A stretch of 64,000 bases of DNA from Branchiostoma floridae (Eukaryota; Chordata; Leptocardii; Amphioxiformes; Branchiostomatidae). A model generated the notes under the pieces. The model saw only the letters and a list, made by a program, of their open reading frames with translations, was not told the DNA's origin and did no database searches. Of this stretch, positions 1-63,689 are shown piece by piece. Within the stretch, counting starts at the first letter, position 1. Every line of letters starts with the position of its first letter. The position numbers were made by a program, and so were the translations under genes. Location: the NCBI RefSeq assembly GCF_000003815.2, contig NC_049979.1:28574249-28638248 (forward strand), given 5' to 3'.

Positions 1-985
1 ACAAATCGAAAGAAAACCTGCCTTCTTCCTCTTCTTCGTAAACCATTTGAAGAAGGATATTGGCAACGTGGATTTTGGTCACATACCTTGCCTTCTGCTT
101 GCACGATGATACCACAATCTTCCATGGCATATTGACATCAACCTTGTCTTTAGAGACGAACAGGGTATTACCGCCAAGCGCCAATCTATCCAGTTTCAAC
201 AGAAACGATTCTCTTGGCAGACACACTAAAGCGTTGTGACTGAGATCTAGGGACTGCAGTTTGGGTAAAGACTCATACGTGTTCGGTGAAAACGACTCGA
301 TTTTGTTTCCAGCAAGAAGAAGCGTTGCGAGACGGATCAATCCGACAAAAGAGAGGTTTTGTATTTGCCGTAGAGCGTTATTCCGTAAATCTAACGTAAG
401 AAGGAGGCTCAGCGGTTCAAAACAATAAGGTTCTAAACTCGATATTCTATTATGAGAGAAAGAGAGCTGGTTGAGATTATATATGCCCCATGCATTGTTA
501 ACGCTGTACCAGTATCTAGGAACACGCGTTATCATGTTTTGGTCTAAATATAACTCTCGTAGGAGCATAAACTTTGTAAATGTAGCTCTTTCTATTTCGG
601 TTATTCCCGTGTCCATTAGAAGAAGGGTGAAGAGACGGGAATCGTTACCAAGCATAGCTAGCTTTTGTGATGATAGCATGCCGAACTTCAAGCCTCTAAC
701 AGCGAACCAAAGTGATTTTGAAAAACAGTCGCCATGTGCACTAGCACTGGGCCCAGAAAAAAGCTGTTGATCACTACTACATGATGTGCACACAGACTTG
801 TGATACTTGTAGTACGTAGAAAGATATTCTTTTTCCAGAAATGTTATGTTAGTGTCCATGCAAAATGCCCACTCTCGCCTTTCACAGCTTGGTAAGCAAC
901 TCTGACGGCTCAACTGGCGGGACGCCGTATACGAGGTGAGAATAACAATAAGAACGCCAAATATGCACAGAAATCTGGACATCAT
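1..985 (-). CDS. LRR transmembrane receptor, copy 1 (N-terminal part, cut by window edge)
   Basis: An uninterrupted minus-strand frame of 328 codons starts at the double ATG at 985 and runs off the left edge. An in-frame TGA lies five codons upstream, which fixes the start. A hydrophobic signal peptide (residues 1-20) is followed by a Cys-rich N-terminal cap and about seven leucine-rich repeats with LxxLxLxxN spacing, then an acidic patch (EEEEE). It aligns almost codon for codon with the copy at 9385-11895, so it is a tandem paralogue. LRR ectodomains usually bind proteins or microbial ligands at the cell surface. The transmembrane segment and tail lie outside the window. The ligand is unknown. 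No frameshift or stop is seen, so it looks functional. Confidence 0.9.
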   Translation of the reverse strand, partial: MMSRFLCIFGVLIVILTSYTASRQLSRQSCLPSCERREWAFCMDTNITFLEKEYLSTYYKYHKSVCTSCSSDQQLFSGPSASAHGDCFSKSLWFAVRGLKFGMLSSQKLAMLGNDSRLFTLLLMDTGITEIERATFTKFMLLRELYLDQNMITRVPRYWYSVNNAWGIYNLNQLSFSHNRISSLEPYCFEPLSLLLTLDLRNNALRQIQNLSFVGLIRLATLLLAGNKIESFSPNTYESLPKLQSLDLSHNALVCLPRESFLLKLDRLALGGNTLFVSKDKVDVNMPWKIVVSSCKQKARYVTKIHVANILLQMVYEEEEEGRFSFDL

Positions 986-8199: not shown

Positions 8200-9365
8200 G
8201 TCCACAGTCTCAGGTGGCCCTTAAGTACAATTCATTTATTTTCGTAATCTAACATTTTACTTCTGGGCCACCGTATAAGTCTGAGTTCAACTGCTTGAAC
8301 CACGCCTCCTCCACAGTCTAAGGTGGCCCTTAACCCTATTCAGACCGGGCTTTTTTGGTCATCCCTGGACCGGGGGGGGGGCTTTTGAGGCCCTCCACTT
8401 CTAAGTCCTATAACTCTAAAACGACGTGCCGTAGGGCCACCAAATTTTCAGGACATGATTTTGACATAATATTTGATAAGTATGTGACGTTTGACGTTAC
8501 GTTGACGTAAGATGACGTAATTATGACGTCATCAATTTGATTACATTGGCCAAACCCATGAAAAATGGGTATTCTCAGAAAACTTCAAGTTATGCTGCAA
8601 AAATGTAACAACAAGTGCAGATAACAGAATCCTAATGTTCATTACGACTTGTGTTGCCAATAGCAACATCAATGACGTCAATATGACGTCATAACATGAC
8701 GTCATGCACATCTAAGATACGAGTTGGGCTCCGCCATATTATATCCACCACCTTGAATTTTTAAAAATACTTTTTTTGCAACAAATAATCACAAAGGGCA
8801 ATGGAAATAGACTAAATTCATTCATTTAGATGGTTTTTGATGAAGAAATACCATATAGTTACAGATTTTAAGGGAAAATTAGCTTGTTATTCTTGATCTG
8901 GCCATTCGGTCCGCCATCTTGGATTTTGGGCTGATGACGTCATCAAATTAGCATAATTTATGCATATATAATTATGAAAGATATGCTGAATAATATAAGA
9001 TTTTATTTATGTAACAAAATCGCAGTAATATAGCAAATAAATGTGAAAAATACATAGTTAGAACCAAAAATAGTGATTTTTGGCAAAACTGCCTGTCAAC
9101 AAACGGTTGCCATGGCAACAAGAAAAAATGGAAAATTTGTCAAACTTCGTAAAATTGTTTCCAACAATATTTTAGGAAAACTCACCAAATTTGGTGGCTC
9201 TAGCGTAAGCCGTTCTGGCGTTATAGGACATCGAATTTAGCGCGGGCCTCAAAAGCCCCCCCCCGGTCTGAATAGGGTTAAGTACAAATTCATTTTTTTT
9301 TCGTAATCTAACCTTTTTACTTCTGGACAACCGTATAAGTCTGAGGTCAGCCGCTTGACCCCTCG
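8200..9365. repeat. About 108-bp direct duplication, second copy split by a transposon
   Basis: Copy one (about 8200-8300) reads AGGTGGCCCTTAAGTACAA and onward. Copy two reads the same up to GGCCCTTAA at 8333, is interrupted by the element at 8334-9277, and resumes at GTACAAATTC (9282). The uninterrupted first copy acts as an empty-site control for the insertion. Confidence 0.85.
8334..9277. mobile_element. Non-autonomous piggyBac-like element
   Basis: A 944-bp element. Terminal inverted repeats are CCCTATTCAGACCGGG at the left and CCCCGGTCTGAATAGGG at the right, with a further internal inverted match (GGGGCTTTTGAGGCCC against GGGCCTCAAAAGCCCC). It is flanked on both sides by TTAA (8330-8333 and 9278-9281). 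TTAA duplication with CCC termini is the signature of the piggyBac superfamily. No transposase frame is present. Five TGACGTCA palindromes lie inside. Confidence 0.85.
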
Positions 9366-9384: not shown

Positions 9385-11895
9385 TCACTCGTCATCGATC
9401 TCGTTCCCATGGTTGCTCGTTCTCATGATCTCGTCCTCTGTTTCTTCGTCATCCCCTGTTAAAACGTCATCATGATTTTGCGGGGTACCGTTTATTTCGC
9501 TGTCTGTATGTGAGGAAAAGTTATGTGCGTCCTGACCAGATACAGTCTCCTGGTCTTTTACTTCGTAGGTCATATCATTAGTGTCTTCATCTTTTATATC
9601 GCAGTAGGTATGGTGCTGTGGATTGTACTCGTCTTCTTCGTTAATTTGGGCGTACGCGTTTGTTGAAGCCATTTGAGGGGTTTGCCCATTGTCTATTTCA
9701 TTGCCATGAGGAATGATCTTGGGCTGAGGCGCACCTTGCGGATTACTTTGGTAGTGCATGTTTTCCGTCACAGAAATTTTTGGAAAGCTGGAAAGGGGAT
9801 GAGGAGAGATTGGAGTTGTGTTCTTTCCAGATGAAGCGTTTTTGTCTTTTATGTCGCAATGCACGTTAGTGTCTTCATCTTTTATATCACAGTAGGTGTG
9901 GTGTTGTGGATTGTACACCTGATCTTCGTTTATTTGGGCGTACGAGTTTGTTGTAGGAGTTTGTGGGGTTTGCCCATTGTCTATTACATTACCATGCGNN
10001 NNNNNNNNNNNNNNNNNNNNNNNNNNNNNNNNNNNNNNNNNNNNNNNNNNNNNNNNNNNNNNNNNNNNNNNNNNNNNNNNNNNNNNNNNNNNNNNNNNNN
10101 NNNNNNNNNNNNNNNNNNNNNNNNNNNNNNNNNNNNNNNNNNNNNNNNNNNNNNNNNNNNNNNNNNNNNNNNNNNNNNNNNNNNNNNNNNTTCTTTTGAT
10201 TACGTGAAAAGGTAGGGAGACAAGAATTATCACAACAAGTGTAACCACTGCTGCAGAGCCCACTATAATATATAGCCGTTTTAACAATACTTTTGCTGTT
10301 TTTCTAGATACCTCCTCTTTAGTTTGTATTGTCGGCTTGCCATTCGTAAAAATTTCTGACAATGTCATTGTATCTTCCAAAGATACATATGTTGTTGTTG
10401 TTGATTTCTCTGACGTAATACTAGGTATAGACACTACGGTTGTGTCTACAATGTGAACAGTTCCGTTCCTATCCGACTCCTCTTTCAAACAGTTTGTACC
10501 TACTTTCATTGCTGATGAGGCTCTGAAGTTTCCATGATACATGTTGTCTCCAACCAGAGTAAAACAGTGCACTGCCTGTTCACTTGTGGGAGGACCAGTC
10601 CCTGTCACTGAATCTGCCATTACGACGAAACCTTGCTCCTCGCTGTTTTCTACACCGGATATTCGTAAATTGTATGCCTCGTTTGAAGGCAATTTCATCC
10701 CGCCAGGCTCTTTCCACGCCTCGGCACACTGGACCGGAAACGGTGCGCGGCTACGCTTGTCTCCATTCTTCACCATAATGACGAAAGGAGGACGCAAGTG
10801 GCTGGATGACGTACAGTGCGAAGATCCCTCTTTGCCACACGACTGCGAAACGTGTGGTTGATAATCCATGCACTTGGGATACTTCACAGTGCCCTTCTTC
10901 ATGTCAAACCGATTGAAAGAGAACCAGTCTTCCTCTTCTTCGTAAACGACTTGAAGAAGGGTGTCAGCAACGTGGATTCGTATCACATGCCTCCTGCTCT
11001 GCTCGCACAGTGCCAGCACAATCTTCCATGGTATATCGAGATTTGCCTTGTGTTCAGAAGCGAAAAGGCTATCACTGTCGAGTGTTACACTATCAATTCT
11101 AAGTAGACTCAGAAACAACTCTTTGGACAGACACACTAAAGCGTTGTGACTGAGATCGATGGACTGCAATTTGGTTAAAGGCTCCAACGCGTTCGGTGAA
11201 AACGACTCGATTTTGTTTTCGGCAAGAAGAAGCGTTGTGAGACGGCGCAATCCGATAAACGATAGGTCTTGCACTTGACGTAGAGCGTTATTCCGTAAAT
11301 CTAACGCATCAAGGTTGTTCAACGATTCAAAACAATAAGGTTCTAATCTCGATATCTTATTATGAGAGAAGGAAAGCTTGTTGAGGTTATATGTACCCCA
11401 TGGCTTTAGTTCACCGTACCAGTTTCTAGGAACCCGTGTTATCATGTTTTGGTCCAAATATAACTTTCCTAATATTGCAAAGTTTGCAAATGTAGCTCTT
11501 TCTATTTCGGTTATTCCCGTGTCGATTAGAACAAGTGTGTCGAGCCTTGCATCGTTTCCGAGCACGGCTAGCTTTTGTGACGATAACATGCCAAACTTGA
11601 AGCCTCTTATACCAAGCCACATGAAAGATGCAAAACATTCACCACTAGCGTTGAGGCCAGAAAGAAGCTGTTGATCATTATTAACGTTACATGATATACA
11701 CAAAGACCTGTAAAACTTGTAGTGCGTAGCATAATATTCGTTGTCCAGAAACGTTGTGTTAGTGTCCATGCAAAATGCCCACTCTCGCGGAACACAGTTT
11801 GGAAAACAAGTCTGGTCGGAGGACTCACAGGAAACCGTATACGAGGCGAGAATAACGATCAGAACGCCAAATATGTACAGAAATCTGGACATCAT
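9385..11895 (-). CDS. LRR transmembrane receptor, copy 2, with repeated ITAM-like tail
   Basis: A single-exon receptor of about 836 residues, including 64 or more unknown residues in a gap. The start at 11895 (double ATG) is chosen over 11949 because copy 1 has a stop upstream of the same ATG and a signal peptide follows at once. In order: signal peptide 1-22; Cys-rich cap to about 115; about seven LRRs 116-290; a Cys-containing extracellular region 291-540 with a Thr/Ser-rich stalk; transmembrane helix 541-565 followed by basic HVIKR; then the gap. The cytoplasmic tail contains two modules of YAQI, twelve residues, YCDI, each preceded by HGN(V/E)IDNGQTPQ. It ends in an acidic stretch and HGNEIDDE. 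The YxxI spacing fits the ITAM consensus, so signalling through SH2 proteins is a reasonable inference. The ligand is unknown. Confidence 0.93.
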   Translation of the reverse strand: MMSRFLYIFGVLIVILASYTVSCESSDQTCFPNCVPREWAFCMDTNTTFLDNEYYATHYKFYRSLCISCNVNNDQQLLSGLNASGECFASFMWLGIRGFKFGMLSSQKLAVLGNDARLDTLVLIDTGITEIERATFANFAILGKLYLDQNMITRVPRNWYGELKPWGTYNLNKLSFSHNKISRLEPYCFESLNNLDALDLRNNALRQVQDLSFIGLRRLTTLLLAENKIESFSPNALEPLTKLQSIDLSHNALVCLSKELFLSLLRIDSVTLDSDSLFASEHKANLDIPWKIVLALCEQSRRHVIRIHVADTLLQVVYEEEEDWFSFNRFDMKKGTVKYPKCMDYQPHVSQSCGKEGSSHCTSSSHLRPPFVIMVKNGDKRSRAPFPVQCAEAWKEPGGMKLPSNEAYNLRISGVENSEEQGFVVMADSVTGTGPPTSEQAVHCFTLVGDNMYHGNFRASSAMKVGTNCLKEESDRNGTVHIVDTTVVSIPSITSEKSTTTTYVSLEDTMTLSEIFTNGKPTIQTKEEVSRKTAKVLLKRLYIIVGSAAVVTLVVIILVSLPFHVIKRXXXXXXXXXXXXXXXXXXXXXXXXXXXXXXXXXXXXXXXXXXXXXXXXXXXXXXXXXXXXXXXXXHGNVIDNGQTPQTPTTNSYAQINEDQVYNPQHHTYCDIKDEDTNVHCDIKDKNASSGKNTTPISPHPLSSFPKISVTENMHYQSNPQGAPQPKIIPHGNEIDNGQTPQMASTNAYAQINEEDEYNPQHHTYCDIKDEDTNDMTYEVKDQETVSGQDAHNFSSHTDSEINGTPQNHDDVLTGDDEETEDEIMRTSNHGNEIDDE
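9595..9654 (-). other. ITAM-like module 2 in LRR receptor tail
   Basis: Codons for YAQI (9643-9654) and YCDI (9595-9606) are separated by twelve codons with a third tyrosine (EYNPQ) between them. YxxI/L with 6-12 spacer residues and a second YxxI/L is the ITAM definition. The downstream TYEVKD adds another tyrosine. Confidence 0.7.
9883..9942 (-). other. ITAM-like module 1 in LRR receptor tail
   Basis: YAQI (9931-9942), twelve residues, YCDI (9883-9894). It is followed by a degenerate duplicate in which tyrosine has become histidine (HCDI, 9851-9862), as expected of a tail growing by internal duplication and decay. Confidence 0.7.
9999..10190. other. Assembly gap (192 N) inside the LRR receptor tail
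   Basis: The gap starts exactly at a further HGN repeat boundary and ends just after the transmembrane segment. The lost sequence is therefore probably more copies of the tail repeat. The open frame is in phase across it only if the true length is a multiple of three. Confidence 0.9.
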
Positions 11896-17568: not shown

Positions 17569-20500
17569 CTACTCTACATGCGGCTTGATGATGACGGCTA
17601 CGTTGATGGCGCTCTCCTTGACGTATGGCGAGTCCGGGCCGAGCTCGTTCTCCTCGAAGAACTGTTCCACAGTGACGGAGTCCTGCTGACCGAAGGACGG
17701 CATCCCGAAGCGGAAGCCTGTGGCGGCCTGGATGGCGTACGACTCCCGGTGCGTGGCCTGGGTAGCTTTCACCGTGGCCGACCGCCTGATGATCTGCGCC
17801 ACGTTCACGTCTCGGTCGTACACGAGGAGCGAGATCTCGAAGCTGCGGTCACGTGGGCAGATTTTGAGTGGCGTGAGCTTGATCGCCAGGCACTCGTACT
17901 TGTGTAGGGTGGCGTTACTGCCCAGGCCGGACCGGAAACGCTTGCCGATGTAGTTCAGTTGGAATGCGATGTTCCACATGTAATCTTCGGAATGAACCTA
18001 TTGAAAGGCATTGAAACCACGTTAAAATGACATCCCGGGCCAGAAAGGACCACGCTGACATGTATCTGCAATACAAACCTCTGTGAATATTAACCCTATT
18101 TCTGAGCATCAGGGGTAAGTGCAAAGCATTTATCCAGATGCATTTTCATGTGTGTAGATTGTGTTCATGATCAGAAGGGCCGGTCAAAGGTCTCTGTGCC
18201 GATAGTGTTCAGGGCAGGAGATAGGTGTGTTAACCTGTGTGTGGATGGTTTTCAGCATCAGGGACAGGTCTGTGTGTTGATGGTGTTCAGCACCAGGGAC
18301 AGGTCTGTGTGTGGATGGTGTTCAGCACCAGGGACAGGTCTGTATGTATGGTATTCAACACCAGTGACAGGCCTGTGTGTGGATAGTGTTCAGAACCAGG
18401 GACAAGCCTGTGTGGGGGTGGTGTTCAGTACCAGGGACATGTCTGTGTGTGGATGGTGTTCAGTACCAGGAACAGGGTTGTGTGTCTATGGTGTTAAGCA
18501 CCAGGGGCAGATCTGTGGGTGAATTGTGTTCAGTACTAAGGACAGACTCGTGTGTGGATGGTGTTCTGACCCAGAACAGATTTGTATTTGAATCGTATTC
18601 ATCATATATATGTGTATGCGTTGTATTGCGATGTGTTTGGATCAAGATATCTCGATTGGGCATACACCGTCTTTTAGAAGGGACGTAAAATGGAACTTCC
18701 GTACTCGAGAAGGTTTCTCTTGCACGTTTAAGAGACCCCTCCCTCAAAAATATGCACATTAACCACAATACGTTGAAAATGGTTGCAACAACGTGTCGTA
18801 CGGTACCTCGTTGGGCACGGGTGAGTCGAGGCTGATGGTCCTGACGTTGTGCTGGAAGCGGCGGATGTCGGACAGCTGGAGCCTCAGGAATGTGCACCAC
18901 TCTTTGGCCGTGTAGTCACGTGGCAGGAACTTGTTGTCATGGAAACCTCCCACCTAGAGTGCAGACGACACAAAACGTTTCTTTGTCAGTTGAACAATGA
19001 AACTAAGTAAATTGTGGGAGGTCAAAAGATAGAACACGACTTAATCTGATACGACTTACGATACGTGCAGCTGTTCAAGGTGCGGTTTTATGAAAAAAAA
19101 ACTAAGGTAAATTGCTAAGGTAAATTGGTATCTTTTTTCATAGGAATATAAGAAATGTGTCACTGGATCGAAGTGTATGACATCCACTGCAGTTTTATGA
19201 AAAGCTGCAAGGCGACGTTTTATAAAATTCTGCAAGGTGCATTAGTATCTTCTACACAGGAATAAGACAAGCGTTCCTGGATGCAAGTGTATGACACCTA
19301 CAGCAGTTTATGAAAAGTATCTTTTATACAGGCATTTAAAAATATGCGACCCTGTATGTAAGTGTATTACTGCAGTTTTATGAAAACCCGCAAGGTGCGT
19401 TCTTCGAATTGAGCTCACCTGTCCCGCCAGAGACCGGAACCGGTAGGCTTCGTTGATGAAGGGGCTGAGGAGAAGCGGGAACTTCTGTCCTATGGCGGAC
19501 CGTTCCACGTTCACCAACTGCTGGGGGAGCATCTGAGAGAACCTGACGTGCGGCAGCAGCCTGATCAAGTTCTCCCCGGCCTGGGCCTCCCTGTACTCCG
19601 CCAAAACCCAGTCCTGCATCGCCTTGAACACGGCGAACTCGTTCTCTACTATAAGCGTGGTGCACTGTAAGAGTTCCCCTACGTATTGCACGTCTAGTTC
19701 CAGCCACTCGGGCATGGCCACTGCGCTCGCGAAATTTCTGGAGATGGCGTCGAAGCATTTCTCCTCCAACTCTTCGAAGCCGTACATCCTAGCGTAGTGC
19801 ATGTACATGACAGCGGCCCTCGCGTTACCACCTTGGACTTTCCTCCTCATAAACTTCTCACACTCTGTCCTTATAGACTCCACGTTGTACTTGTCGCCTA
19901 GAAGTAAAAGCGGGACGGCAGTGTCTATCTCTAAGGTCACCTGGCCGCAGTAAAAGTACTTGAGGAATTCGGTGAAGACTTCTTCGCACGCGCTGGACTC
20001 CTTGAGGACGATTTCGGACTTCTTGGAGTCTGCCCAAAGTTGGCCGGCCAACATGGTGTGAAAGACGTCGCTGGAACGCGCCAGCGCGAACTTGTGTGCG
20101 TAGTATACATTTGGTCCCACTCTGTTAAAAGAATGAAGATTATGATAAATACATACTCAATGAAGGCACGCACCTCACCTTTATCCGCGAGGTAACCTAA
20201 ATCCGTCGTTTTTTGAAAATAAAGAAATGGGGATATCAAGTCCACGAACGGTGATTATACACAACGTGTATTTTCAAAATATTGCAGTTTGAAACCATCA
20301 ACTGGACATCACTAAATACTCTTTTAAAACAACTGACATAGGCTACCTTCTTGATAGCGGAGTAACGTTAGAAATTACTATAAACTGAGAAGAAATTCAT
20401 AGAAATTTTATGAATAAATGGACTTTTGCCTCGTAACGCAATGATTTACATAAAACTGATAAATAAAACTGAAACGAAAGTTCACGAACCTACAGAAGAA

Positions 20501-37589: not shown

Positions 37590-40500
37590 CTAGCCTGTTC
37601 CCGACGCCTCTCCCTCCGACGACCCGGTCCCCATCAGACGGGGTTTGATGATGATCGCTATGTGCAAGAACCCGTCCTTGATGTACATAGAGTCTTGTCC
37701 CAGGTCTTTCTGGTCGAAGATATGTTCGATGACGAAGGAGCTCTGGGTCGGGATGATCGGAGGACTGAAGCGGAACCCCCCTGGCTGCGCGCCGCCGAAG
37801 TTGTTGGCTCCGGGGACCCCCTTCACAAGGAAGTTGTTCCGAATGACGCGCGCCACGTTCATGTCCTTGTCGTACAAGACGAGTGACAGCTGTACGTCTC
37901 TGTCAAACGTCGCCAGCTTGAGCGGAGTGACTTTGATGGACAAGCATTCGGCGGTCTCCGGTGGGGACACCTGGGGTAAAGGTAGCACGGTGTTCGGTCC
38001 CGGGTAGATTCGGGTGGGTTTGGCACCGGAGACGGCGTACAGGTGGACCGCCATGTTCCAGTGGACCACGTTCAACATGGCCTCCACGGGGATGGGTCCG
38101 TCCAGGCTGATGGCGTTCACGTTGTTCGGGTACTTACGGATGTCGGAGAGCTGCAAGCCGAGGAATGTGCACCACTCCTGGAGTAATGTTTGGANNNNNN
38201 NNNNNNNNNNNNNNNNNNNNNNNNNNNNNNNNNNNNNNNNNNNNNNNNNNNNNNNNNNNNNNNNNNNNNNNNNNNNNNNNNNNNNNNNNNNNNNCACGTG
38301 CGTATTTCCTGACCTCTCTCCATCCCAGACTGGAGATGTTCCATTCGTCCGGGATGGGGGAACTTGGCTATTCTAATCTAAGTAATCTAACATTGTCAAC
38401 ATCGCAAGAGGTCTCAAAACACAGTATTCATCCGCGACACCGTCCCCAATAGTAGTTCAGGTATAAAGTAGAGCGTCGCAGTGCGGCTGCAGTTTCGTGA
38501 CCTCCGCTGGGGGTCAAATAAAAGTGCCTTTGAAAAGAAAGCAAGCCTGCAAATGTATGCTGATTTTCAGATATTTCGCAGATTTTGCCATAAACTTCAA
38601 CGCATCAAATTCTGGTTAACTGCTCCTGCGCCCTGTGACAAGTTTTGAGGCGTCGAACCTCCTCACTTTGGGGTCCTTGACCATGTAAATACTCATAGGC
38701 CAAAAACTGTGTTCCGAGACCATAAAACAATCCCTGTACATATGTGAATACGTTTGGTACCGCATCTGTAAGCAGCGACACCTATCGCTATAGCCCTGCA
38801 GTGCAATATGAAGCTGTCGAATTTACCCCGAGGAAGGTGACGTGACAGACAAAGGTTAAGATAAAACAAGGGTTGTGGAAAAAACAGTCTCTTTATTCAA
38901 TGACGTACCAACCTGAAGAAACTATTCACATACTCACCTGAGACATCACCTTCGGCAGGTAGTCCTCCACCTTGTCCGCCCGACACTCCGCCAACAGCCA
39001 GTCCTGCAGCGCCTGGAACAGGACGAACTCCTCGTCCACGACTAGCGAAGAGTTCTGCAACAGTTCTATCACGTACGGCAAGTCCAGGTTCAACCATTCG
39101 GGCGTCTTCATGGCTTTGGTCATCCGTAGCGAGAGAACTTCGATACACTGCGTTTCAAGCTCTGTCAGGGAGTACACTTTTGCGTAGTGTAGCCAGAGTA
39201 GAGCCGCTCGCACGTTTCCTTTCATGACTTGCCCTGTCATGTACTTGTCGCATACCTCTCGCACGGGTTTCACGTCGTACTTGTCGGCTAGGAACAACAG
39301 TGGCAGCGTTGTCTCGATGTCAAGGTTCACTCTACCGCAGTAAAAGAAGCGAAGGAAGTCGCCGAAGACGGACTCGCACTCGCAGGACTCCTTGAGTTGG
39401 ATCTCTTCCTTGGAGGAGTCTGTCCAGTGCTCTCCGGTCAGCATGGTGCGGAAGACATCGCTGAGGCGGGCTAACATGAACTTGTGCGCGTGGTATCTGT
39501 AGGTAAAACGGGAATTTTAATTAATTTCCGGGCAGATTTACCGGTGCCATAACATAGTATCAAAGCTGACCAAAGAGTTTAGCCGACCGGGAGGTATACT
39601 CCATTCATGGTGTGTTTTTCTAGTCTACATTGCCGATTTCTGTTGTGTGTGTTTGTTTTTTACAGCCGCAATCACTGCCACTCTTTTTTAATGAATCTTA
39701 ATCATTGTTCATCGATTAAATTCAGTGGTAAAACTGCGATTTCTAATAAAGTTGTCTTGTATCTAATGTGGGGCCGAAACTGAGGATGTGACATTCCATG
39801 TGCCCATCTTGTTTGTAGGGGTTACGTATTTTATACCCCTGTTTCCCACGTCAGTGTGACCGCAAGGACAACATGGCGAAAAATTCGCAAAGTTGCCGCA
39901 ATAATTTGTCGCCAATGCAGTGAAGTACCCGATTGAGTAAGAAACGTATGAAAACATTCATATGAATACACATACAAAGGAAACGTATTGCTGTCAGTTC
40001 CGCCAGCTAAAAGGACCTAGTTGCAAAATATATGACATACGAATATATTCTAATATTTCAAGAAATCTCAGCCTCTAGGCAGACATCTGTACCACAGATG
40101 TCATCACCTTTAGCGAAATCAAATTGTGCTCGGATACAGAAGTTGTAAATTTCAAGTCTTTTTTCCCCCAAGACTTCAAGACTCCTAAAAATGTTCTTTG
40201 TCTGTGGCGAACTACAAACTTGTCGTAAACATTCCAAAGAAAACACGGAAAGTATTTCATTTGTGGACACGTATACAATAGATACATTCCCGAGATTTTG
40301 CAGTCCTTCTACTTAATATATCTTCTCCCGAATTCGTCTTAAAAGTACTGAACAAACGACAAGAGACAGTAAAAGTTGACAGGGCTGTATAAATTCCGAA
40401 GCACTTAGCTGATAAGTGTCACATCAATTATCCCCCTGCAGTAAAGATTACGTTAGTACTGTTGAAAGGAATATCAAGCCTGGCGAGAACACATACGGCG

Positions 40501-59800: not shown

Positions 59801-62800
59801 TTTGTACCCACCTGTGTCTGTCCCCTCTGGAATAGAGCAGACCCATGTAAGGGTTTGTACAGGTCCACATCACAGGAGATGTCTCTCAGGGAAGTCACAT
59901 CACGCCCGTCACATCTGTAGATTAAAACCGTGCAAGACAACAAATTTTATGTGACGTCATTGCTGAGAAAGACGACCACACACTACTTGAATTACTGTAA
60001 ATGCAGTAACTCACAGTGGTTTTATGTTTGTGGTTTTTACGTTGCCAATTCACCGCAAACTTAAAACCACCTCGAACATTTTCTATGGCAGTAAGCAACT
60101 ACCAGTGCATGGTGCTTCCGCGAACAGTCCTTTTTCCTGCAACTGCAAAATTAAATCCCCGTGAACTTAAATGCATTTCCAGTACATTGATTGAAAGAGA
60201 CACTAGTACCCAGGTCTCACAGGAAATGCCTTCAAGTTGGTGAACGCAATGAAAGATGAAAAGTACTGAAGGAAAGAACTCTGCTTAACTGCTTTAATCT
60301 GGATGAAAAATGACAACGATGATTGCTGTGTCCACCGCCACGTTGGGCAGGATGGCAGGAAAGTTGAAATCAGGCAGCATAGCAGTTGTATAGCAAAAAC
60401 ACACCTCTGATAAGTGTCCAGTATGAGGTTCCTGAAGACCTGTTTGGTGACCACACTAATAGACTCACTAATCATGAAGGGTTCTGCCTCTGGAAACAAC
60501 TCTGAAAGCAGACAACAAAATCATCCTCCAAAGAAATGTTGATACTTTTGCTGTGAGTGTTTACCACAAATGTACATCAGAGCCAAATATACATCCTACT
60601 ACAGTTATTATTGTACATCGAACAATAAAAAAATCATTCTTCATACTCAAGGGGGTATCCAATTATGATGGGTCAAATAACAAGAAAGGGGGAATATTAA
60701 GTACAACCACATTCAATGTATGTGTATGTTAATTGAACAATTAATATATACTACCATTATCAAAAATTATATGTAGCGTCACTACCATTCAAAATAATTA
60801 AATGATATATACTATCACTATTAAAAATTATCAGAAAATGTTTTATTTCCTACAATCTTCAGAACAACAAAAGATCTTATCAGTTTGGCAAATTGTAATT
60901 TGATAGATCCACCTACCCTTTAGTTTTTCTTCCACCTCAGCTCGAATTTCTTGCACAGCATTATCCCGAGAGAACTGTAGGTACCCAACAAAAATATAGT
61001 TGTGTAGATTGTATTACATTTGTTTGTTCGTGTTGCATACCCTGTAAACCACCTCATTGCATAACAAACCAGTATAAGCTGCATTTCTGGCATATTTATT
61101 TGATCAACTCACATGTCCTATCCAAGGGCACATCGAAGCTACTCATTTTCACCTGAGTGTATACCGTATTTCTTCTAATAAACCGCGCACTTTTTTGACA
61201 TTTCAACTTTGAAGTTGGTGCTTCAGGTCAAAGCCAAAGTCGGGGTGCGCGCTTTATTTAGGGGTTGTCTCAAGAAAAATCACGTAACAAGCCAGAAAGC
61301 CAGCGATTGCGCCGCGAGGTATCGCGCTGAACATCGATAATTTATGCATTTGTCTTTCGTTTATTATTTACAAGATAAAAATTGTTAACGTTATATAGAC
61401 TTAAAATTACGCATGCTTATGTTATTCTTTGTATTAAAACTAATATAGTTGTAATGATATTTAACGTTATAAGAATGATATTATAAGAATGACTTGAAAA
61501 AGAAAAACGGAGACAATCGTCCGACTTTTTGCAGCGTGCTGGGGCTGGCATAATTTGTTAGTTATGTTACAAATATTTTATCCCCGAGGCATCACGCGGC
61601 TGCACGCCGGCACATCGTGTATTATCCACGAGCATTTTGACCCAAAACATAATTGCTATGATCAGAAAATGTTGCAGGGTTCTTCTTTGCAGGAGTTTTG
61701 TTTTTGTGTGACGAGAAAAATGCGACATTATAATTTTTCGGGGTGTTTGGAAACCCACGCTAAGTTTCAGCACACTTACGGCTGCATCGAAACCCAAAAT
61801 TACGCTAGAGACACCATAAATTCACATATAAAAGCATGTTTCCACGGAAGGTTCTTTGTATTATGCATATCTTAACTAGAATGGTGCAATGTAATCGTTG
61901 AAAATAGCGTTCTTTTGCGTTTCAAAAATGTAACTCTGATAATCAAAATGGCGGCAAGCTAGCTGCAAGCCGCGGGAAAGCTCCCATGATGCACCGCTGC
62001 AACCAATCAGAGCGCGAGATCGCCGGGGAATCCCCGTCATTAGTATTCAGTTGTTGTTGTTGTGGTGGCTTCAACCAATCAGAGATGCGTATTTCCGATC
62101 CTGCAGACGCCGCGTTTCGTGCCGCGCTGTCCAAAAATACGTATTTCTCGGGAAGAACAGCGGGCCACGATGTTTTATTATGACAGTAAATGTGTTTTTT
62201 TTAGTTTATCATCGAAAAGCCCGGTAAAATTTAACGTTTTGATGTCTGCTCACTCGATATAATGGCATCTTGTAGCATGAAAATTCTCATCGCGCTGCGT
62301 GAGCAAGCCGCCGATAAATTATTGGTAGAGTGAATTTTCTCTACGTAACTTTACAAGTGCGGTGCCGATCCAGAAATTGTATCATTTTTCTAAAAGTTTC
62401 ATAGGAAATTAGGCGAATAAACATCAAAGGGTGCTGCGCTATATGAGGGCGCGGCCAAGTTTTGAGGGTACCCCCGGTGCGATCGTCAGCAAAAATTAGG
62501 TGCGCGGATTATTGAGGGGTTTCCCTTGACTATCTCAGCTTGCGTGTAAGGGCACACGATGAGCCCCAAATCGGGGGTGCGCATTTTATTTGGGGTGCGC
62601 GGTTTAATGAAAGAAATACGGTAATAATGTAAATATAAACAAGAGCTAAGTGTTAACTTTACCTTGTGATGGGTGGCGTCAGTAAAAACAACTTGAAGTC
62701 TTTCTGTGGCAAGTCTGAAAAGAAAAAAAAATAGTTCCCTAACAATACCTTTAAAGTTTATACATTGTGCATTTAAGCTATTATTGACAGCAAACTATCA

Positions 62801-63203
62801 TGTCTGTTAAGATAAAACAACAGCTTCATTGTGGAGTAAAAGGGCAAAATATACCCGAATAAACATGGAACAGGTACATTTTGACCAGGGTCATTGTTTT
62901 GCCTGTTACACTGGTATGCAGAAAGAAAAGCCCATACATTCTGGCCTGGGTGCATTTTGACCATGGCCATCGTCTGGCCTGTTACACTGGCATGATACTG
63001 AAAGAAAGACCCATACTTTCTGGCCTGTTCCAATATCTCCTCCGGGGGTGTGAAGAGTTTGGGCGGGGTTCTCTTCTCCTTCCCGACCTCCTTCTGAAGA
63101 GCCTGGATGCCCCGGATGATCTTCTGTGTCTCCTTGATTCCCGTCTTGATGGCTCGCTGGAAGTCTGGCAGCAAGACGTTTTCTGCAGAACCCTCTAACA
63201 TCA
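50418..63203 (-). CDS. PNPT1: Polyribonucleotide nucleotidyltransferase 1, mitochondrial PNPase (3' 18 coding exons)
   Basis: Exons (minus strand, 5' to 3'): 63017-63203, 62663-62714, 60917-60974, 60405-60501, 59812-59914, 59194-59264, 58740-58776, 58240-58306, 57550-57631, 56862-56915, 55992-56101, 54910-54981, 54128-54275, 53445-53528, 52341-52447, 51996-52051, 51391-51469, 50418-50807. Splice sites are GT-AG and phases agree at all junctions except 58240|57631. PNPase is a phosphorolytic 3'-5' exoribonuclease that acts as a trimer in mitochondria, degrading and processing RNA. Recognised in order: the end of RNase PH domain 1 and helical linker, RNase PH domain 2, KH and S1. Exons for the first part of domain 1 and the targeting peptide lie beyond the right edge. 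Confidence 0.96.
50846..51235 (-). mobile_element. LINE 3' end fragment in last PNPT1 intron
   Basis: A 92-codon minus-strand frame begins with [18 protein letters not shown], resembling the terminal Cys/His motif of LINE reverse transcriptase ORFs. In reverse complement it ends CAATAAACTTCATTGTCATT, a polyadenylation-like signal with a CATTGT tail. Confidence 0.65.
51391..52447 (-). CDS. PNPT1: PNPT1 exons for end of KH domain and start of S1 domain
   Basis: Exon 52341-52447 encodes [17 protein letters not shown] and helix 3 of KH. Exon 51996-52051 encodes [18 protein letters not shown], the first S1 strand. Exon 51391-51469 encodes [20 protein letters not shown]. All are in phase (1, 0, 2). 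Confidence 0.95.
52809..53400. mobile_element. ACAGTCAAACCTGT family element, copy 2, split by a nested insertion
   Basis: GCAGTCAACCCTGTACAAGT at the left and GTGACCACTTT/GTGACCACCTG internal motifs match 2822-3383. The hAT-like element at 52933-53363 sits inside it. Both lie in a PNPT1 intron. Confidence 0.55.
52933..53363. mobile_element. hAT-like MITE (M8) with 8-bp target duplication
   Basis: Termini TAGGGCTGGGTACCGGTAC and GTACCGATACCCAGCCCTA. GTGACCAC flanks both sides (52925-52932 and 53364-53371). The interior has several GGTCCAGGTCC repeats. A second copy begins at 63893 and runs off the window. Confidence 0.85.
53445..54275 (-). CDS. PNPT1: PNPT1 exons for linker and KH core
   Basis: Exon 54128-54275 encodes [20 protein letters not shown], the last helix of the catalytic core, through KEYGPVS. 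Exon 53445-53528 encodes [20 protein letters not shown], where GPGG is the KH GxxG RNA-binding loop. Confidence 0.96.
54910..56915 (-). CDS. PNPT1: PNPT1 exons for the active site of RNase PH domain 2
   Basis: Exon 56862-56915 encodes [17 protein letters not shown], the Ser-rich phosphate-binding region. Exon 55992-56101 encodes [17 protein letters not shown] to LLTDIL. Exon 54910-54981 encodes [19 protein letters not shown], which carries the paired aspartates known as catalytic in PNPases. All key residues are intact. Confidence 0.96.
55080..55898. mobile_element. MITE family M7, copy with inner insertion, in PNPT1 intron
   Basis: Left end AGGCCAGGTTGATTTGATTT, right end AGGATGTCATCCACATAATC then ATTAACATGGCCTA. 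About 500 bases between CAACCTTCCTGACTACTTAG (about 55317) and GGGCAAACTTTTTTCAGG are absent from other copies. Confidence 0.7.
57550..57631 (-). CDS. PNPT1: PNPT1 exon with a frame conflict at its 5' end
   Basis: From GATGCCCTGAAG onward it encodes [20 protein letters not shown] and VLESNG, matching the family (ALYPVIPRDFPFTIRV in human, from memory). With the only good acceptor (TTTTAG) it starts in phase 0, while the upstream exon ends in phase 1 at ELGHG. Confidence 0.85.
57795..58205. mobile_element. MITE family M7, full copy in PNPT1 intron
   Basis: Left end AGGCCACGTTGATTTGGCAA, right end GATGTCATCCATATAATCAA then GTCAACACTGCCTTA, 411 bp. Interior shares the CAGGAAGGTTGAACAAACGA block in inverted order with 40980 and 55310. 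Confidence 0.8.
58240..60974 (-). CDS. PNPT1: PNPT1 exons for the start of RNase PH domain 2
   Basis: Six exons: 60917-60974 and 60405-60501 (end of the helical linker, ELFPEAEPF), 59812-59914 ([20 protein letters not shown] and [12 protein letters not shown]), 59194-59264 (VLSTVTFDS), 58740-58776 (KDFMLHYV) and 58240-58306 ([20 protein letters not shown] then GHG). Phases are consistent throughout. These are signature segments of the PNPase second core. Confidence 0.96.
59759..59864. repeat. 53-bp tandem duplication across a PNPT1 splice donor
   Basis: CCTGTGTCTGTCCCCTCTGG and GCAGACCCATGTAAGGGTTT occur twice, 53 bases apart, with few mismatches. The right copy is the true exon 3' end and donor (CAG|GTGGGT); the left copy is a decoy donor inside the intron. 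Confidence 0.9.
59993..60184. mobile_element. MITE family M9, copy 2, in PNPT1 intron
   Basis: TACTGTAAATGCAGTAACTC at the left and TTAAATGCATTTCCAGTA at the right, 192 bp. Interior TTCACCGCAAACTTAAAACC and CTATGGCAGTAAG parallel the copy at 44287-44498. Confidence 0.8.
61162..62623. mobile_element. 1.46-kb terminal-inverted-repeat element in PNPT1 intron
   Basis: TACCGTATTTCTTCTAATAA then ACCGCGCAC at the left, and GGGGTGCGCGGTTTAATGAA then AGAAATACGGTA at the right. The terminal match is about 28 bases, with further GGGGTGCGC motifs just inside both ends (about 61242 and 62576). Open frames of up to 106 codons inside are not recognised as a transposase, so it is probably non-autonomous. 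Confidence 0.8.
62663..63203 (-). CDS. PNPT1: PNPT1 exons for the end of RNase PH domain 1 and helical linker
   Basis: Exon 63017-63203 encodes [20 protein letters not shown] through [14 protein letters not shown]. Exon 62663-62714 encodes [17 protein letters not shown]. The first exon opens in phase 1 after a CAG acceptor at 63204-63206, so at least one more exon lies to the right. None is visible in 63207-64000. Confidence 0.94.
62875..63035. repeat. About 75-bp tandem duplication touching a PNPT1 donor
   Basis: CATTTTGACCA.GG.CAT.GT, GCCTGTTACACTGG and AAGCCCATACATTCTGGCCT occur twice, about 75 bases apart. The right copy contains the real donor (GTATGGG, 63010-63016) and the last codons of the exon. 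Confidence 0.75.
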
Positions 63204-63689
63204 CTGGACATACAGTAAAATAAAGATAAATCTTGCCTTAAAGTTTGTATGTCTGGAGATAATAAGTATTACTTAATTATCTCTTCATATCTGTGGAATA
63301 GGGGAACTGTGACAGACCTAAGATATGTGAAAATAGATGAAAATGGGCAACATCAAAATGTTAAAGTTGTGGATTGCTCTTAGCCAGTAAACAAAGTTGG
63401 GATAGCATATATGATCTATCACTCTGACAAGAGTGTGTAGTTTATTCCTTTTGAGCCCAGAATGTTTCCATGCATTTTAGAGTCATTTGGACATATTCTA
63501 TTCTTGTTTGATGTTTTTAAGTAAGAGCACTTAGTCTATCTTTTCAGCCTCAGTATAGGCTACAATGTTTTACAAAATAAATCATTCTCATTTTCATTCT
63601 GTTGCTACGGTTATACAAGCTTACAGCATGAAGTGAAAATTAACTGCCACACAGAATACTGCAAGGCATTCAAACAATCAACTACCACA

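Follow-up and report, generated by a model that had tools for sequence, protein, structure and literature searches.

Does a leucine-rich repeat (LRR) receptor of the lancelet carry in its own tail a tyrosine module of the ITAM type, or did a duplicated tail come to resemble one by accident? The locus lies in the window analysed here, a stretch of 64,000 nucleotides from Branchiostoma floridae. A sequence-only reading of this stretch had claimed that an LRR ectodomain, a transmembrane segment and an ITAM-like array are joined on one chain. The observation is confirmed, and the window gene proves to belong to a large lancelet family of type I LRR receptors, most of them encoded by a single open frame. 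It bears on the open question of how immune receptors acquired ITAM-Syk signalling ahead of the jawed vertebrates. Among the titles and abstracts listed by the literature searches, which left most subscription papers outside their scope, none dealt with the present receptor family or with any ITAM-bearing LRR receptor of amphioxus.

The receptor gene and its duplicated tail

An ATG-to-stop frame runs uninterrupted on the minus strand (11892-9385) and encodes a receptor with a two-unit tail. The features of the gene, and the start of its neighbour, are as follows.

9385..11892, minus strand: single-exon LRR receptor gene, 835 aa, of which 64 are unknown because of an N gap (open frame)
11827..11892, minus strand: signal-peptide-like N terminus, residues ~1-22 (hydropathy, without a dedicated predictor)
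11068..11550, minus strand: leucine-rich repeats, residues ~115-275, limits approximate (Pfam LRR_8, E 4.4e-24; LRR proteins in PDB)
10432..11040, minus strand: membrane-proximal domain common to the family (alignment of 14 members)
10213..10272, minus strand: putative transmembrane segment, residues 541-560 (hydropathy 2.7)
9999..10190, no strand: assembly gap of 192 N in the juxtamembrane tail
9709..9996, minus strand: tail unit 1, 96 aa (direct repeat)
9883..9942, minus strand: ITAM-like module 1, YAQI-x12-YCDI with YNPQ inside
9850..9861, minus strand: HCDI, a decayed half-module 7 residues past YCDI, residues 678-681
9412..9708, minus strand: tail unit 2, 99 aa (direct repeat)
9595..9654, minus strand: ITAM-like module 2, YAQI-x12-YCDI with YNPQ inside
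9556..9567, minus strand: YEVK, an extra tyrosine that is not YxxI/L, residues 776-779
9388..9411, minus strand: first 8 residues of a third unit, HGNEIDDE, truncated by the stop
5..982, minus strand: 5' part of the tandem paralogue L009, 65% identical over 330 positions

The PDB matches shown for the receptor were LRR proteins. Pfam found no TIR domain in it, and an Ig domain after the LRRs was matched neither by Pfam nor by the PDB sequence profile. The membrane-proximal domain had no match in PDB and none above the cut-off in Pfam; in the window (10432-11040, minus strand) and in the sister genes it holds conserved cysteines and PFVI, QCxEAW, GG and LKG stretches. A structure predicted for the ectodomain from one sequence was too poor to use (mean pLDDT 34.5). 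The hydrophobic segment at residues 541-560 is taken as transmembrane, with a presumed topology in the cell. Two PDB matches of the tail (E 0.07 and 1.1) were judged to be chance.

The two modules read YAQI-NEDQVYNPQHHT-YCDI (residues 651-670, 9942-9883) and YAQI-NEEDEYNPQHHT-YCDI (residues 747-766, 9654-9595). The claim that both lie within the broad ITAM limits, with spacers of exactly 12 residues, proved right in the frame 11892-9385, and the third tyrosine (YNPQ) is indeed present inside each spacer. The decayed HCDI and the further YEVK, which had been noticed as well, are both there. Upstream of the first tyrosine the modules have TTNSY and STNAY (TDDNAY in some sisters), and the -2 positions of the four YxxI sites are N, H, N and H.

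The tail units form a 131-nt direct repeat with 88% identity at a distance of 288 nt; past the stop, the sequence gives no convincing continuation of the repeat. The end of the transmembrane segment and the first unit are 72 residues apart in the window gene; in the tandem paralogue, which has no gap, the distance is 66, therefore the N gap need not conceal a further 96-residue unit. An extra module inside the gap was weighed and, given these distances, judged unnecessary.

How easily could such a tail arise by chance? At least one YxxI/L-x6..12-YxxI/L pair appeared in 1.06% of shuffles of the window tail, and two in 0.016%. Since copy 2 arose by duplication, the one-pair figures, with 0.6% for unit 1 alone, are the fair ones. 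All six frames of the window, 127,996 residues in total, contain 20 such pairs, two of which are the receptor modules. The 26-codon core differs between the copies by nine nucleotides and three amino acids (dN 0.064, dS 0.58, one-sided P 0.004), and as few core changes were seen in 0.3% of neutral simulations. The four key residues survived in 33-36% of the simulations, and because survival of the motif is so common, the two window copies by themselves are weak proof.

Other features of the window

On the 3' flank of the receptor gene lies a 944-bp element (8334-9277) with the inverted ends CCCTATTCAGACCGGG...CCCGGTCTGAATAGGG and TTAA on both sides, presumably like a non-autonomous element of the piggyBac type. 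The stretch adjoining it is duplicated at 88% (8221-8298 and 9278-9358). Pfam recognised two BTB-BACK genes on the minus strand (19311-20156 and 38929-39516), and the frames 17572-17997 and 37593-38372 look by eye like the downstream parts of these two genes. The minus-strand frame 62776-63237, which from its appearance we take to be like a polyribonucleotide nucleotidyltransferase, had no significant Pfam match.

A gene family with a common tail

The assembly searched comprises 513 Mb in 431 contigs. One tail query matched 18 places, including the tandem paralogue adjoining the window. This paralogue contains no N and follows the layout of the window gene; its tail, left of the window, has three x12 modules and one decayed module. 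Another tail query matched 24 places, 22 of which share a frame with an LRR ectodomain of the family; one tail-query place (L018) has the membrane-proximal domain only, and at one the frame has stops and lies ~0.9 kb from an ectodomain match. The ectodomain query matched at least 81 places at E ≤1e-5, not all of them separate genes, and this number is a lower bound because 80 of 1557 candidates were scored. Ten of these places were already in the set, 20 were read whole, eight by their tail, and 43 were left out.

The resulting set of 31 genes combines the window gene, ten that the tail query had brought in, and that are thus biased to the motif, and 20 picked by ectodomain rank alone. The last are the fairer set, though they are the best-ranked of the at least 81 places, and their ectodomain matches have 32-40% identity to the query. 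A YxxI/L pair at 6-12 is present in 16 of these 20 genes (15 at x12, one at x8), where shuffles predict 0.47. For the whole set the count is 25 of 31, with 0.64 expected from composition; both expectations treat the genes as unrelated and ignore common descent. With the near-copies L016 and L017 omitted, the pair spacings in the set are x12 in 33 cases, x13 in five and x8 in one (L027). Judged crudely by hydropathy, 24 of the 31 genes have an unbroken frame that opens with a signal-like start and extends through to the tail, and the nearer members carry one to five modules. The genome searches by tail and by ectodomain have yielded many sister genes with the module, and paralogues keep the tyrosines and their spacing. 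The receptor had also been thought unusual and self-duplicating: the units are indeed repeated, but they are no one-off, being the common tail of a gene family.

In a tree of 28 ectodomains, with 12 of 25 inner branches well supported, x12 tails are scattered through the family on long branches, therefore the tyrosines and their spacing have outlasted much ectodomain change. The tails are not uniformly under stronger constraint than the ectodomains. The dN/dS values of tail and ectodomain are of the same order: that of the tail is lower in two pairs (0.49/0.63 and 0.41/0.75), nearly equal in a third (0.35/0.37) and higher in two pairs of recent copies on C19 (0.54/0.35 and 0.69/0.31). One relative, L010 (C2:30196188-30200908), is split into two frames of 399 and 587 aa, and a plus-strand frame overlapping it resembles by eye the reverse transcriptase of a retrotransposon.

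Conservation of the module

Modules were recognised by an anchor that ignores the tyrosines and requires I/V/M three residues past the first (Y1), and P/A plus S/Q/T/L past the second (Y2). The Y1+3 column is therefore conditioned, and strongly decayed modules are overlooked. The count of 45 recognisable modules, from 21 genes, excludes L016 and L017, which are almost identical to L015, as well as an overlapping half-module in L010. Y1 is kept in 45/45, Y2 in 44/45 and the last tyrosine, Y3, in 45/45; the least variable columns are these three tyrosines and one H. The spacing is x12 in 39 modules and x13 in six, all of the latter in L010 and L012. Isoleucine stands at Y1+3 in 42/45 modules, in the column conditioned by the anchor, and at Y3+3 in 36/45. 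The -2 position of Y3 is H in 44/45, while that of Y1 is I/S in 2/45 and otherwise mostly N or H. The tyrosine codons are mixed, TAC and TAT, and the consensus is approximately YNQI-NEDEV-YDPSGHE-YCEI-KDED.

Losses were found too. All five modules of L036 keep Y3 but have lost its +3 I/L, and decayed modules outside the anchor have lost tyrosines (Y3 in the fourth copy of L009, Y2 in L041). Eight of 29 genes have no anchor module: L030, L043, L045 and L046, each with an intact x12 module that the anchor overlooked; L029 (partly within an assembly gap), L041 and L042, which are without a pair; and L027, which has the x8 form. A hand-made alignment includes 20 of 28 modules, omitting six of L016/L017, one L009 repeat copy and the decayed L009 copy.

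Outside the module, NPxY occurs in 16 of the 31 tails, being absent from the readable window tail and from L009. An FYAATAEV-like stretch is found in 12 of 31; the window gene shows none, but there the gap covers the juxtamembrane part. Among the L027-L046 tails, the juxtamembrane stretches QSNPMYxG, TFYAATAEVxLP and QTAYxM recur in many sisters, and L043 and L045 have C-terminal tandem repeats of ~11 residues (PGTSENVTVL-like) downstream of the module.

Distant tails and the class of the module

The tails of eight lower-ranked relatives contain 10 to 44 tyrosines each. Two or more YxxIPD sites are present in seven of the eight, a pair at 6-12 in one (L061, x10). Their 24 successive YxxI/L gaps include one at 6-12, 14 at 15-26 and nine longer ones. 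YxxI is therefore kept more widely than x12, which belongs to the nearer branch. Over the 31 tails, 109 YxxI/L sites were counted, with 29.9 expected. The tails of L047 (C18) and L049 (C4) have 42 and 44 tyrosines and 21-residue repeats of the YWEIPDEYYNYYNTRPGAQHP type. Homologues keeping the repeat without its tyrosines or spacing had been named as evidence against the reading, and at a distance this objection partly holds: the nearer branch keeps both, whereas the x13 branch and the distant gaps (1/24 at 6-12) depart from the spacing.

The ITAM is defined as Yxx(L/I)x6-12Yxx(L/I) (PMC5557797, PMC3528668). In this broad sense, two Yxx(L/I) 6-12 apart in a tail, the definition covers both window pairs and 25 of the 31 genes. 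A strict ITAM has a spacer of 6-8 residues and D/E shortly ahead of the first tyrosine; the window modules have x12, and no D/E stands closely ahead of their first tyrosine. The Pfam ITAM profile did not match the window tail, a weak test with a short profile and without a positive control. An invariant middle tyrosine and H-x-Y are, to our knowledge, foreign to ITAMs. At -2, the window sites also differ from the ITIM consensus (I/V/L/S at -2, L/V/I at +3). We settle on the term ITAM-like and stop short of classing the module as an ITAM, because x12 is limited to the nearer branch, the constant positions include the middle tyrosine and H-x-Y, and the -2 position is not that of an ITIM.

Candidate effectors in the lancelet

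The SH2 region of human SYK was used as a query and matched five places, the best at C15:6243561-6243917 (E 3.6e-21, N-SH2 part). Against structures, this N-SH2 exon matched SYK at 3.9e-42, ZAP-70 at 1.4e-38 and the next family at 8.2e-16, and C-SH2-like exon pieces were seen by eye within 4 kb downstream. Judged by these matches, the genome encodes an SH2 region assigned to the Syk/ZAP-70 family. A tandem-SH2 pair on C14 is, by eye, presumably SHP-2-like. Invertebrates are described in a review as having a single Syk-like gene (PMC10253181). Amphioxus has an SLP-76 homologue (PMC5431462) and an Lck homologue; both amphioxus and human Lck are reported to phosphorylate an amphioxus LRR receptor when expressed in human cells (PMC8211107).

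Proposed mechanism and alternatives

Ligand binding by the LRR ectodomain would lead to clustering of the receptor, whereupon a Src-family kinase would phosphorylate Y1 and Y3 and probably Y2 too. The YxxI pair, 12 apart, would then dock the lancelet Syk-family kinase by its tandem SH2 domains and give an activating signal, phagocytic or NF-kB-type, from one chain that needs no ITAM adaptor besides. Of the readings considered this is the likeliest, yet whether the family does signal in this way, by Src-family phosphorylation and tandem-SH2 (Syk) docking with an activating outcome, we consider evenly balanced. The analysis shows the sequence, its conservation in the family and a Syk-family SH2 region in the genome, and from sequence we infer how the receptor lies in the cell, that it is phosphorylated and bound by Syk, that it activates and that it serves immunity; the modules as likely phosphotyrosine docking sites are the stronger part, the presumed role of Syk and the activating sign the weaker.

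The modules could instead be a general docking array, in which each pYxEI is a separate site for a Src-family, adaptor or other single SH2 protein and the spacing is incidental. The Src SH2 consensus is pYEEI. The distant tails agree with such an array, with at least two YxxIPD sites in 7/8 and gaps of 15-26 (14/24) or longer (9/24), and so do the x13 branch and the surplus of YxxI/L sites in the 31 tails (109, 29.9 expected). We nevertheless hold it to be somewhat unlikely, as x12 is kept in 39/45 modules across a long ectodomain divergence. An inhibitory receptor, whose phosphorylated modules would recruit SH2 phosphatases of the SHP-2 or SHIP type, is suggested by analogy with BbLcLRR of Branchiostoma belcheri, and the pair on C14, which looks SHP-2-like, is in keeping with it. 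BbLcLRR is reported to be phosphorylated by Lck, to bind SHIP1 and, less, SHP1/2 after TCR stimulation, and to dampen TCR signalling; its motif HDY655SEV resembles the third tyrosine of the module, and among published results its inhibition in Jurkat cells weighs most against an activating sign (PMC8211107). It was, however, assayed in human T cells, and its comparison with the module is by published motifs only (PMC8211107). Inhibition also leaves the fixed x12 pairing unexplained, and the -2 residues are not those of ITIMs (H before Y3 in 44/45, I/S before Y1 in 2/45), so that we regard it as unlikely.

Endocytic sorting would make YAQI and YCDI YxxPhi signals for AP-2, and NPxY, which many sisters have close to the membrane, would be a second signal. 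The YxxPhi consensus fits the YxxI sites, and NPxY is found in 16/31 tails, albeit neither in the readable window tail nor in L009. Sorting seems quite improbable, since it accounts neither for the invariant middle tyrosine and the H nor for the acidic residues and the spacing. An accidental match in a neutrally duplicated tail is hardly credible: for the two window copies alone, roughly one neutral simulation in three does preserve the key residues, but the module is conserved across the family.

With an ITAM-like module kept on the LRR receptors of a chordate family, nature supplies variants for direct peptide-binding and cell tests: x8, x12, x13 and wider gaps, one to five copies, and decayed copies. 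They occur in an animal group that also has homologues of Lck (PMC8211107), the Syk family and SLP-76 (PMC5431462). More tentatively, and with the balance against it, the family could be a germline-diversified LRR repertoire of dozens of genes, wired by a repeatable ITAM-like tail to a Syk-family kinase. It might then be an LRR counterpart of the Ig-plus-ITAM lymphocyte receptors, with the number of modules (1-5) setting signal strength.

Comparison with known systems

Toll-like and LRRIG receptors are likewise type I receptors with LRRs, but Pfam found no TIR or Ig domain in the lancelet receptor. CD3 zeta carries several tandem ITAMs on one chain, with spacers shorter than the lancelet x12, and, unlike the lancelet LRR receptor, is without a ligand-binding ectodomain. 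The ITAM of FcgammaRIIA has a spacer of 12, and we know of no conserved middle tyrosine or H-x-Y in vertebrate single-chain ITAM receptors. FcgammaRIIA and the fish G6f-like receptors resemble the lancelet family as transmembrane receptors with Yxx(L/I)x6-12Yxx(L/I) in their own tail (PMC9731471, PMC3528668). They differ by their Ig ectodomains and single ITAM, and their likeness to the lancelet family is one of motif. Among invertebrate receptors, arthropod Dscam has a predicted ITAM-type tail motif; this motif is YXXL, and the Ig-type ectodomain is diversified by splicing (PMC6851185).

Within the lancelets, BbLcLRR (GenBank MW390887) differs in being 699 aa long, with WSC, LRRNT and LRRCT called by SMART, in motifs reported as ITIM or ITIM-like, and in its inhibitory function; it is likened to the module by short motifs (PMC8211107). 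It is alike in its LRRs, transmembrane segment and tyrosine-phosphorylated tail, and its HDYSEV resembles the HxYxEI of the lancelet module (PMC8211107).
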